Shown: positions 16,621 to 19,596 of the stretch, piece after piece
Position numbering within the stretch: the stretch's first letter is position 1
How the letters are laid out: each line of letters opens with the position of its first letter
From: Pollutibacter soli
Lineage (GTDB): Bacteria > Bacteroidota > Bacteroidia > Chitinophagales > Chitinophagaceae
Assembly (NCBI GenBank): GCA_029269725.1
Contig: JARJHS010000002.1
Coordinates: 372,001-436,000, forward strand
DNA: 64,000 nucleotides
Reading direction: 5' to 3'
Notes under the pieces: model-generated
The model's database searches: none
Seen by the model: only the letters and a program-made list of their open reading frames with translations
Told to the model about the DNA's origin: nothing
Translations under genes and position numbers: made by a program

Positions 16621-18336
16621 TCAGTTCCGATACACTAATACAGCAGCTTTACGGATTATTTTTCTTTTCCCATCCAGGTGGAACAGATCGATGACCAGGT
16701 AATAAATTCCGCTAAGTAACAGCTGATTTCTGTCGTTGAGGCCGTTCCAGCGAAAGTAGCCTTCAGTGCCGCACACCTGATTTTTTACAAGGTTGTTCAC
16801 CAGGAAACCAGCCTGGTTAAATATACTGATACTGCAATTATACCCTGGTTTATCCAGCTTATAGCTGATAGTTAACTGATCATCATGCCCATCATTGTCG
16901 GGAGAAAATATTTTCAGATCAGTAGAGAATTCATCTTCTGATGGAATATGTCTTTTGAACTGTGAGTTTTTTCTGCCTGGAGTAGCATAACCTGCATCAC
17001 TTGCTGCAGACATCCAGTTAGATGCATCCTGTGTTTTTGCAAACGGATCTATTCTTTCCAGCGATACACCTTCCGGATCATTCACTAATGGATAGTGCAT
17101 TTTTTCTGAATAGGAGAATTCGTCGATCACATCACCTGAATTATTTAAAAGTATAACTGAGCCTTTATCATCCGGCCACGAAGGCAGGTTATCAACATTA
17201 AGAAATGCAACATTTTTTCTGATCTCATACTCCTTGCTGACGATCATGAAATCTTCCGATACCAAATAGTAATCGCCCGGAAAAATCAACTGATGCTGAT
17301 TGCTCAAACTCACCATGCCGGTGATTTCACCTGTATTGTTACGTCCTGCCGCTAATAGGTTGTTTAAATCAATTATACTATTTCCTGCATTATAGATTTC
17401 AACAAAATCGATTCCTGATGGCCGTGGATTAAAAAGTATTTCGTTTATAATAAGTCCTTCATATGATTTACCTGCAAATCCCGTTTTTATCTCCAGTGTG
17501 AGATTGTTGCGTGATCCATAACAATCGGGAATGGACGAAGCTGATAGGGTAAATACATGATCCGGCATCAACGGTTCAGACAACAGAAGCACTGCTGTAT
17601 TAAAAAGCGGAGGCTGAACCGTTATCTGCTGCGGTTGCCCGATGCCGTTATCAATAGTAAATACGTCGTTTTCCAGCGTAATCATAGCGCTATCGACAGA
17701 TTTATTAAATACCACTACAATGTGAAGACTGTCTGTTGCAAAGCTGGAAATAATTGACAATGGGACTTCATCAATGAAAGAAGAAGTTATTGCATTCTTT
17801 TTGCCAGGTGTACCGCCAACCGGCGAGACACTGAATCGCCAGTTCTTCCAGCCGCTGCAAGGTTTACTTTCATCCATCATTTCCAGCGACCAGCCTCCGT
17901 TTACTTTCACAGGGTCAGGAAAACTGTCAATATTATACTCGATTCCATGTATGAGCCTTCCGTCAGCCGCAAAAAGCATAAGCTGATCTTTGCGGTTATC
18001 CAGCGAGGGAAATCCACTGATGCCAGCGGTAGTACCAAATTTTTCAAAAGCAGTTTTATAAGCATTTGAACATATAATAAGAAAACTATCCGGCGGCAAT
18101 CCGATATTTTCGGTTATGCGTCCGCGGCTATTCCCGTCGCTGATAATCCATCCAAGGAGAATGATTGTATCGTTGGAATTGTTTTTTATTTCTATGAATT
18201 CGGCCTCGGGAAGACCAACAGAAGGATTTGGATCGGCGAGGAGCTCGGTAATAACAATATCATAGATTTTTACAGGTTGTGCATCCGCAGAACTCCATCC
18301 AATAAGACAAAACATCACCGGTATCCAGGCCTTCAT
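16621..18336 (-). CDS. Secreted lamin-tail-domain protein with gliding-type C-terminal domain
   Basis: A 571-residue exported protein with a signal peptide (1-19, ending SADAQ). Two lamin-tail (LTD) domains are seen: ITELLADPNPSVGLPEAEFI near the N-terminus and IINEILFNPRPSGIDFVEIY around residue 290. The last 90 residues, from FSPDNDGHDDQLTISYKL to IIRKAAVLVYRN, resemble the FlgD-like/CHU_C region of proteins secreted by the type IX system. It is likely a cell-surface or secreted protein. Whether it binds nucleic acid, polysaccharide or protein is unknown. Confidence 0.85.
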   Translation of the reverse strand: MKAWIPVMFCLIGWSSADAQPVKIYDIVITELLADPNPSVGLPEAEFIEIKNNSNDTIILLGWIISDGNSRGRITENIGLPPDSFLIICSNAYKTAFEKFGTTAGISGFPSLDNRKDQLMLFAADGRLIHGIEYNIDSFPDPVKVNGGWSLEMMDESKPCSGWKNWRFSVSPVGGTPGKKNAITSSFIDEVPLSIISSFATDSLHIVVVFNKSVDSAMITLENDVFTIDNGIGQPQQITVQPPLFNTAVLLLSEPLMPDHVFTLSASSIPDCYGSRNNLTLEIKTGFAGKSYEGLIINEILFNPRPSGIDFVEIYNAGNSIIDLNNLLAAGRNNTGEITGMVSLSNQHQLIFPGDYYLVSEDFMIVSKEYEIRKNVAFLNVDNLPSWPDDKGSVILLNNSGDVIDEFSYSEKMHYPLVNDPEGVSLERIDPFAKTQDASNWMSAASDAGYATPGRKNSQFKRHIPSEDEFSTDLKIFSPDNDGHDDQLTISYKLDKPGYNCSISIFNQAGFLVNNLVKNQVCGTEGYFRWNGLNDRNQLLLSGIYYLVIDLFHLDGKRKIIRKAAVLVYRN

Positions 18337-18389
18337 GGAATAAAATTAACTTCACTGACATAGCTGAGAAGGGGAAAAACAACAATTAT

Positions 18390-18420
18390 TTGGAAGAAAA
18401 AACTTTCCCTTTTATTTTTG
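18390..18420 (+). promoter_or_regulatory. Promoter of the asd leader
   Basis: TTG (18390-18392), a 20-nt spacer, then TATTTTTG (18413-18420), a perfect TAnnTTTG. Transcription should start near 18424-18427. That leaves a leader of about 160 nt before asd, with the leader-peptide ATG almost at the 5' end. Confidence 0.6.
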
Positions 18421-18427
18421 CTCTCCA

Positions 18428-18487
18428 ATGTTTAACAATAAGAAACATACAAAGAAGACCAAGCTTTTCCTGACGGAGGAAGGTTGA
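18428..18487 (+). CDS. Predicted Lys/Thr-rich leader peptide of asd
   Basis: A 19-codon reading frame, MFNNKKHTKKTKLFLTEEG, with five Lys and three Thr codons; seven of the eight codons 5-12 are Lys or Thr. Lysine and threonine are end products of the pathway that Asd serves. The frame ends inside the segment AGGAAGG that can act as an antiterminator arm. It begins only a few bases after the predicted transcription start, so it would be translated from a nearly leaderless 5' end. The A-rich composition could give Lys codons by chance, so this is a hypothesis supported mainly by the downstream structure. Confidence 0.5.
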   Translation: MFNNKKHTKKTKLFLTEEG

Positions 18488-18542
18488 GAATATTTGTATG
18501 TACAGAATATATTTAAGCCTTCCTGAAACGGGAGGCTTTTTT
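18467..18542 (+). promoter_or_regulatory. Attenuator: competing hairpins ending in an intrinsic terminator
   Basis: Arm 1 TTCCT (18467-18471) can pair with AGGAA (18477-18481). The overlapping arm AGGAAGG (18477-18483) is an exact complement of CCTTCCT (18518-18524), which is the 5' side of the terminator. The terminator stem AAGCCTTCC/GGGAGGCTT (18515-18523 and 18530-18538; one G-U pair) has a 6-nt loop and is followed by T6. These parts match a classical ribosome-controlled attenuator. Confidence 0.6.
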
Positions 18543-18588
18543 ATTAACCAAAAACCAAAAACTCCGGAAGGAGACAAACAAAAAAATC

Positions 18589-19596
18589 ATGAAAGTTGCA
18601 GTTGTAGGTGCTACAGGCCTGGTAGGCACAAAAATGTTACAGGTTCTCGCGGAAAGAAATTTCCCTGTGGATGAACTGATCCCGGTGGCTTCTGAAAGAT
18701 CAGTAGGTAAGGAAGTGGAGTTCAAAGGGAAGGCATATAAGGTAGTAACTGCAATTGATGCCATTGCATTGAAACCGGATGTTGCGATATTTTCTGCGGG
18801 TGGAAGTACTTCCCTCGAGCAGGCCCCTAAATTTGCGGAAGCAGGAATTACAGTAATCGATAATTCATCGGCATGGAGAATGGATCCAACCAAGAAACTG
18901 GTTGTACCGGAAATCAATGCGCATGTACTTACCGCTGAGGATAAAATCATCGCAAATCCAAACTGCTCCACTATTCAGATGGTAGTGGCTTTGAATGATC
19001 TTCATAAAAGATATAAGATCAAAAGAATCGTGGTTTCCACTTACCAGAGTGTAACGGGTACTGGCAAGAAAGCAGTTGATCAGTTGATGGGCGAGCGCGG
19101 AAAGGCTATGAATGGATCCTCCGGAGATTACCCGATGGCCTATAAATATCCGATTGATCTCAATGCCATTCCACAAATCGATGTATTTCTTGATAATGGA
19201 TATACCAAAGAAGAAATGAAGATGGTGAATGAAACCAGAAAGATCATGGGTGATGATAGTATCCGCGTGACCGCAACTACTGTCCGTATTCCTGTGATGG
19301 GTGGACATAGTGAAAGCGTTAACGTGGAATTTGAAAAAGATTTCGATCTTGCTGAAGTGAGAAAAATATTATCGGCCACTGCAGGTGTAGTACTGGTGGA
19401 TGACACAGCGACTCAGCAATATCCTATGCCGAAAGATGCACACGAACGTGATGAGGTTTTTGTTGGTCGTTTAAGAAGGGACGAAACACAACCGAATACA
19501 TTAAACATGTGGATTGTGTCTGATAATCTTCGCAAAGGTGCCGCAACAAATGCAGTGCAGATCGCTGAATATCTGCAGGAAAAAAACCTTTTGTAA
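18589..19596 (+). CDS. asd: Aspartate-semialdehyde dehydrogenase
   Basis: Reduces aspartyl phosphate to aspartate semialdehyde, the branch point to lysine/diaminopimelate, threonine and methionine. A Rossmann motif GATGLVGTKML sits at residues 7-17. The catalytic Cys is C126 in NPNCSTIQ. Downstream are the conserved YPIDLNAIPQID and GGHSESVNVEF with the active-site His. The length of 335 is normal. An AAGGAG-like site 16 bp before the ATG is unusually strong for Bacteroidota. It is preceded by the predicted attenuator and followed by a perfect terminator hairpin, so it is transcribed alone. Confidence 0.97.
   Translation: MKVAVVGATGLVGTKMLQVLAERNFPVDELIPVASERSVGKEVEFKGKAYKVVTAIDAIALKPDVAIFSAGGSTSLEQAPKFAEAGITVIDNSSAWRMDPTKKLVVPEINAHVLTAEDKIIANPNCSTIQMVVALNDLHKRYKIKRIVVSTYQSVTGTGKKAVDQLMGERGKAMNGSSGDYPMAYKYPIDLNAIPQIDVFLDNGYTKEEMKMVNETRKIMGDDSIRVTATTVRIPVMGGHSESVNVEFEKDFDLAEVRKILSATAGVVLVDDTATQQYPMPKDAHERDEVFVGRLRRDETQPNTLNMWIVSDNLRKGAATNAVQIAEYLQEKNLL

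Follow-up and report, generated by a model that had tools for sequence, protein, structure and literature searches.

The asd gene of Pollutibacter soli, encoding aspartate-semialdehyde dehydrogenase, is very probably under the control of a classical ribosome-mediated transcription attenuator, in which the translation of a short peptide rich in lysine and threonine would decide whether transcription ends before the gene or continues into it. By computation we found the layout of such an element, its conservation in relatives, codon variation of the type found in coding sequence, covariation of the RNA arms and a stall position that matches the Lys and Thr codons. The original prediction for this locus, made from the sequence, was confirmed in what it observed, and its interpretation as an attenuator turned out to be largely right. 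In what follows, the window is the whole 64-kb stretch of DNA that was analyzed; coordinates refer to it, and the elements described are on its + strand.

The controlled gene in the proposed model extends from 18589 to 19596, and its assignment as asd was corroborated with the TIGR01296 asd_B equivalog profile, which its product matches with 433 bits (cut-off 324, E 6.5e-130). The gene to the left of the leader, between positions 16621 and 18336, is on the strand opposite to asd. The promoter was found where it had been proposed, with TTTG at 18389-18392 as -33 element and, 20 nt after it, TATTTTTG at 18413-18420 as -7 element, of the form TAnnTTTG. This box has been located at -12 to -5 in Flavobacterium psychrophilum, according to the accessible text of that study (PMC9723704), and the same placement here gives a predicted transcription start at 18425, with the leader ATG 3 nt further on. 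As judged from box position, the 5' UTR of the leader is therefore predicted to be about 3 nt, i.e. the mRNA would be near-leaderless. The leader frame itself, MFNNKKHTKKTKLFLTEEG, comprises 19 codons (18428-18487, ATG at 18428-18430 and TGA at 18485-18487), is present as originally described and is kept in relatives. It is followed by an intrinsic terminator at 18515-18538, with a run of six T at 18537-18542, supported by a terminator scan, by folding and by the arm-swap test described below.

Conservation was evaluated in Chitinophagaceae, where 185 of 195 genomes gave an asd match. The upstream region was read in 110 of these 185 (the 30 best asd matches plus 80 more among the matches listed), and the same layout was present upstream of asd in 100 of the 110 regions, using a presence pattern that demanded a terminator-like stem and a T-run; in the other 10 there was no covariance-model match up to E = 1. 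Niastella yeongjuensis, of the same family, carries the same leader (L208). All 100 element-bearing genomes have an ATG-started leader frame of 13-23 amino acids, free of stops in every case, while the other two frames contain stops in 97 and 65 of the 100 genomes. Lys is found in 100 of the 100 peptides and Thr in 94, and without the first Met the overall composition is 25% Lys, 13% Thr and 9% Ile; these Lys and Thr counts profit from a selection rule that took, for every genome, the frame richest in Lys and Thr combined. When the leaders were aligned on a Lys-Lys pair, a core K-H-T-K-R-T-K-K could be recognized in 83 of them, the remaining 17, with no such pair near the expected place, being excluded from core statistics. 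The position directly before the pair is Thr in 48 of the 83 and Ile in 21, and Thr is encoded there by ACA (15), ACG (12), ACT (12) or ACC (9). The use of four Thr codons at a single position is poorly explained by RNA pairing alone, and indicates, at the level of sequence comparison, that selection acts on the leader peptide.

Two main placements of the asd leader stop codon were observed relative to GGAAGG, one immediately in front of it and one 12-19 nt beyond its start, the contrast being between loci such as L003, L019, L058 and L063 and the loci L001, L002 and L014. With either of them, a terminating ribosome would sit over GGAAGG. It was also observed that an ACATAA motif recurs in the spacer of many leaders (in L003, between TATG and the terminator), and that it can pair with TATGT inside the antiterminator.

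The RNA between the promoter and asd can adopt alternative structures. Arm 1 (CATACAAA, 18446-18453), which lies within His-Thr-Lys codons, pairs with TTTGTATG (18493-18500) in a structure of -15.2 kcal/mol spanning 18446-18500. Region 2 (18477-18500) contains this partner of arm 1 and also AGGAAGG (18477-18483), the outer arm of an antiterminator that covers 18477-18524 (-15.4 kcal/mol); in its outer part, 18477-18485 pairs with 18516-18524, which includes CCTTCCT (18518-18524) on the terminator side, and its inner part is within 18488-18514. The terminator fold (18515-18542) has -13.4 kcal/mol. The asd leader thus has both an antiterminator mutually exclusive with the terminator and a further blocking arm. 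Of these elements, the AGGAAGG/CCTTCCT pairing and the T6 terminator before asd had been anticipated and were borne out. The early hairpin between TTCCT and AGGAA (18464-18481) that had been put forward as the first alternative is indeed there, but the main competing helix, overlooked at the time, is CATACAAA:TTTGTATG, which encloses that hairpin. A second GGAAGG near the asd start (18566-18571), suggested as an additional arm able to pair with the terminator, is probably incidental; GGRAGG occurs in the terminator-asd gap of 4 of the 100 genomes.

A single alignment of all 100 leaders, made with MAFFT, was of little use, as it had the 3' partner of arm 1 out of place and gave no structure in RNAalifold, so covariation was tested by arm swaps, in which the pairing of each genome's own arms was compared with that of arms exchanged between genomes (n = 100). 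Own arms paired better than exchanged ones for arm 1:2 (z = -10.5), for the terminator (z = -15.2) and for the outer antiterminator (z = -10.0), with smaller values for the inner antiterminator (-2.8 to -4.8, depending on the cut chosen) and a weaker signal for the inner hairpin of arm 1:2 (-4.1). Controls with the reversed partner or with the terminator as partner gave z = -0.6 and -0.9, and the 5'-most slice of the leader showed no swap signal with region 2 in the 100 genomes (z = 0.1). After thinning the set to less than 75% and less than 65% identity (70 and 33 sequences), the four main swap tests remained clear, with 0 of 5000 permutations as low, and control values of -1.3 and 0.0, respectively. 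Below 60% identity (19 sequences) arm 1:2 and the terminator were still clear and the outer antiterminator was weaker (13/5000), while the inner antiterminator (z = -1.7, 259/5000) was no better than the control (z = -1.5, 364/5000). A subset of 17 close sequences (A1) lent some support for arm 1:2 and the terminator, with five pairs in which both partners had changed (a count attained by 5/500 shuffles), a covariation score reached by 8/500 and further pair types by 91/500; antiterminator pair counts in A1, where the letters hardly vary, were not above shuffles (125/500 and 95/500). A structure-fitted alignment (A3) was left out of these counts because it contains 10 antisense matches, and alignment A2 was also left out. 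The arm-swap comparisons support arm 1:2, the antiterminator and the terminator. The comparison with relatives that had been proposed for the frame and the AGGAAGG/CCTTCC arms therefore came out in favour of the element, both being kept and the arms covarying.

The presence of a promoter and a terminator ahead of asd could also be read in a different way, with the terminator simply ending an upstream transcript or belonging to a small RNA, and asd expressed from a promoter of its own. Intergenic terminators are common, but the gene upstream (16621-18336) is on the other strand, the frame and the arms are conserved, and the position of promoter boxes in the 100 Chitinophagaceae genomes points elsewhere. 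The end of a promoter box is located 1-14 nt before the leader ATG in 89 of them, and TAnnTTYG occurs within 18 nt before this ATG in 87, versus 1.8 expected from first-order shuffles, a comparison that is helped by the rule for leader starts, which took the first ATG downstream of the last promoter box and gave preference to ATG. The TTTG element, whose spacing played no part in choosing frame or start, ends 19-21 nt upstream of the box in 78 of those 87 genomes. In the gap between terminator and asd, TAnnTTYG was found in 1 of 100 genomes, versus 2.8 expected. With the box before the leader ATG and almost never in the gap, transcription of asd appears to run through the leader; a transcription start downstream of 18487, named in the original prediction as an observation that would speak against it, is unlikely, and we regard the ordinary terminator as highly improbable.

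The attenuator reading makes a statement about where a ribosome should stall, and this was explored with a masking model in which, genome by genome, a ribosome was set at each codon and the RNA ahead was folded as far as the 5' arm of the terminator, a stage at which the terminator cannot yet form. When the A site lay 11 to 3 codons upstream of GGAAGG, the mean pairing probability of the CCTTCC arm was 0.83-0.97, and it fell to 0.08 when the A site held the stop codon, in agreement with the proposal that a ribosome reaching the stop codon lets the terminator form. Codons at which stalling is permissive (0.8 or more) are 36.3% Lys and 16.5% Thr, as compared to 9.5% and 6.0% for non-permissive codons (below 0.5), and the contrast was similar for ribosome footprint edges of 9-15 nt. 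For the frame in the window, permissive stall codons are 3-14 (counting ATG as 1); codons 9-12, proposed as the stall site, are inside this set, but the modelled range is wider. When the ribosome is at the ninth codon (Lys) the best fold of the remaining RNA is the antiterminator, and when it is at the stop codon the terminator forms. The folding model is least convincing for a free, untranslated leader, where mean arm pairing was 0.43 and the terminating form was not clearly favoured; folded as far as the 5' arm of the terminator, the leader is most stable as the antiterminator (-19.2 kcal/mol).

On this basis, we infer a sequence of events in which RNA polymerase would start near 18425 and a ribosome would load almost at the 5' end and begin to translate the 19-codon leader. 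If Lys-tRNA were scarce (in Chitinophagaceae also Thr-tRNA), the ribosome would stall in the KKHTKKTK block and cover arm 1 (CATACAAA), leaving region 2 (AGGAAGG...TTTGTATG) to pair with region 3 (...CCTTCCT); this pairing would block the terminator and asd would be transcribed. With both amino acids in plentiful supply, the ribosome would reach the stop codon and cover AGGAAGG, and the terminator would end transcription in the cell before asd.

The control of asd could also be the work of an RNA that binds a metabolite, for example a lysine riboswitch, or of a T-box, and the short frame would then be incidental. Lysine riboswitches are widespread in other phyla, as stated in the available portion of a survey (PMC3766115), and Rfam has a motif from Lactobacillales under the name asd (PMC2864571). 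What is conserved here, however, is the frame together with the alternating arms. A search of the window gave no match to any Rfam family at gathering score, the leader families, lysine riboswitch, T-box and asd motif included, and five related loci searched at E up to 1 gave just two cis-regulatory hits, both far below cut-off (28.5 and 26.9 bits, against 55) and both to Phe_leader, a family that is itself of the leader-peptide type. A riboswitch or T-box is thus extremely improbable at this locus.

As for the codons that would be read, the His and Arg codons might be the sensors, or the frame might be kept only for RNA pairing, and it is true that His and Arg are present in 56 and 42 of the 83 aligned cores and that the CAT ACA AAG CGC stretch itself constitutes arm 1. 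However, His (to N, Y or I) and Arg (to N, K or H) are replaced more often than the Lys codons are, arm sequences vary much between genomes while Lys content persists, and the same scaffold before hisG has His runs instead (see below), all of which makes this explanation very unlikely. A more serious question is whether an attenuator of the same kind senses lysine alone, with Thr codons tolerated and not used. Lys is found in 100 of 100 leaders; beyond the aligned Lys-Lys pair, which contributes two Lys by construction, two more core positions have Lys in 74 and 60 of the 83 cores, and Thr occupies its own two positions in 60 and 48, with Ile, Lys, Ser or Asn often taking its place. In addition, asd leaders from two other families (f42 and f58) lack Thr in four cases out of five and have it only near the start in the fifth, and dapA, in the lysine-only branch, has the same scaffold in five genomes. 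Against this, 94 of the 100 peptides do contain Thr, and the position before the Lys-Lys pair is kept with all four synonymous codons (48 Thr and 21 Ile in 83), which needs a reason. The five dapA leaders have neither Thr nor Ile there, a difference with Fisher p values of 0.017 for Thr and 0.0003 for Thr or Ile, in a small sample with counts made by eye. We therefore consider sensing of lysine alone to be possible but rather doubtful, and Lys, with Thr in Chitinophagaceae, to be the likely signal. The initial proposal of Lys plus Thr holds for Lys, which looks to be the constant of the asd/dapA type in the sequences compared, while Thr, often replaced by Ile, looks family-specific and typical mainly of Chitinophagaceae.

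The attenuators of the Thr, His, Trp, leucine, ilv and phe operons are best known from Proteobacteria. Like them, the asd leader combines codons for the end product, alternating helices and a terminator before the structural gene. Leader-peptide attenuation is textbook knowledge, and the asd leader is no new principle. Comparative work on proteobacterial attenuators has reportedly been done by Vitreschak and colleagues, and attenuator-like sequences before asd are said to have been reported for Streptococcus mutans in 1987. The S. mutans sequences and the structured RNA of the Rfam asd motif (RF01732) belong to another phylum, and a RF01732 match is absent from the window. Mycobacteria reportedly have polycysteine frames that act as leaderless leader peptides reading Cys. 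A leaderless leader peptide for Trp, rnTrpL, has been described in Sinorhizobium meliloti, as far as the available text goes (PMC10117765). Both start at or near the mRNA 5' end, as is predicted for the asd leader, but are from other phyla and have Trp or Cys as the residue. The nearest parallel is SEP5, a translated small frame in a 5' UTR of S. meliloti with six Thr and three Lys codons clustered, proposed as a possible leader peptide for a downstream gene named as aspartate dehydrogenase-encoding; it is from another phylum and kept only in Sinorhizobium, and the accessible text describes no competing RNA structures (PMC10117765). Within the phylum, leader-peptide attenuation has been proposed upstream of amino-acid operons of F. 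psychrophilum, with no asd, Lys or Thr case in the portion of the article available (PMC9723704), and Rfam contains the family Bacteroid-trp (RF01692) from Bacteroidota, compared here by name only.

The specificities listed for attenuators in the available part of a 2013 survey are His, Leu, Thr, Trp, Ile/Val and Phe, not Lys, so the asd leader would differ from them in its Lys(/Thr) specificity (PMC3766115). Our search of open-licence papers, as far as their accessible text extends, found no report of an asd element with a Lys/Thr leader; this specificity has apparently been undescribed before, and the predicted near-leaderless start is apparently new for attenuators in Bacteroidota. Leaderless mRNAs account for about 4-6% of mapped mRNAs in two Bacteroidota, according to the text available (PMC7366714, PMC9723704). 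Control of lysine genes by RNA is known from riboswitches, and a leader reading Lys(/Thr) ahead of a branch-point enzyme would extend a textbook mechanism by one specificity. If true, it would also show ribosome-mediated attenuation at work in a phylum whose promoter is unusual and whose start signals are not of the Shine-Dalgarno type, in this case apparently with almost no 5' UTR.

A covariance model (R1) was built from the asd leaders of 17 relatives, excluding that of the window, and used to search for further copies of the element. In the 64-kb window the asd leader was the only match up to E = 1 (46.3 bits, E 8e-8), and it was also the best in the whole genome of P. soli (E 7.6e-6, the next being 0.087). 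R1 matches all 100 asd elements on their loci, including its 17 training members. Among 28 asd loci of the order, the six from Chitinophagaceae match R1, and none of the 22 from other families does so upstream of asd. When the best 80 of 592 named asd loci were searched, four of which carry little upstream sequence, 23 showed a sense match upstream, with E 0.0022 or better. Nothing comparable was seen by eye at the asd loci of Pedobacter, Mucilaginibacter, Hymenobacter and Flavobacterium that were examined; one Pedobacter asd locus (L239) gave a weak match (E 0.033). The idea that the asd leader is confined to Chitinophagaceae was dropped when the search of the class, in which 31 of 198 genomes have an R1 match at E up to 0.01, gave the five asd leaders of f42 and f58, which are rich in Lys, e.g. 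MKMICSKKCMKKPVR.

R1 also detected the same scaffold before other genes. All seven matches in the genome of P. soli were read and correspond to asd, hisG and five places without a convincing leader. The second best is the hisG leader (L112, G000:C36:177852-177957), a near-leaderless His leader, MILNAHTHHHLFPDQVSR, with a terminator; nine further His leaders are similar to it (L123, L124, L126, L134, L135, L137, L318, L319, L328). Matches at E up to 0.05 were found in 79 of 98 Chitinophagaceae genomes, and among 20 chosen places other than asd there were five dapA with Lys-rich leaders, six hisG with His runs, one aminotransferase and eight without a convincing leader. Outside this family, 18 of 32 places were read: five were asd, three hisG, one a trpE-like gene, one an asparagine-synthase-like gene and eight had no leader. 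Several of these gene names were tested with profiles and the rest, including hisG at L134, L135, L137, L318, L319 and L328, were assigned by eye from the start of the protein. The trpE-like gene (L326, G377:C22:211650-212850) is preceded by MKITMNNTWWWKNLRQTS, which contains Trp, and the asparagine-synthase-like gene (L324, G438:C205:1850-3030) by MKTQTHNNNRFFALASR, which contains Asn and, from its sequence, is possibly an Asn attenuator. The dapA leaders, in five Chitinophagaceae genomes (L118-L122), are Lys-rich copies of the asd type, e.g. MQLIKKHTKQVKKHSMYGEG.

With Lys at asd and dapA, His at hisG, Trp at the trpE-like gene and Asn at the asparagine-synthase-like gene, peptide content follows the pathway. 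This inclines us, by a small margin, towards a modular Bacteroidota attenuator scaffold on near-leaderless mRNAs, in which the control codons would be exchanged according to the pathway (Lys/Thr at asd, and Lys, His, Trp and Asn at dapA, hisG, trpE and asparagine synthase, respectively) and which would include the first lysine-sensing ribosome-mediated attenuators. The same scaffold before other amino-acid genes amounts to a regulon-wide prediction.

dapA was also considered as a general partner of asd in this type of control and rejected as such, R1 giving a sense match upstream in 4 of 45 dapA stretches scanned (L138, L139, L140, L145; the fifth leader is L122) and none in the other 41, and the dapA of P. 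soli itself (L188) having no R1 match. Separately, genes of the thrA type (aspartokinase-homoserine dehydrogenase) were seen to be preceded by frames with Thr/Ile runs, IIITTITTR, ITTTFTTTTR and TTATCTTTR, with no evident T-run terminator (L189, G000:C23:283300-286200; L191; L192). Finally, the aminotransferase gene mentioned above, which resembles aspartate aminotransferase, is preceded by the leader MVIKKLHKELKRLAAGRPQ and a terminator (L125, G050:C9:96967-97081).
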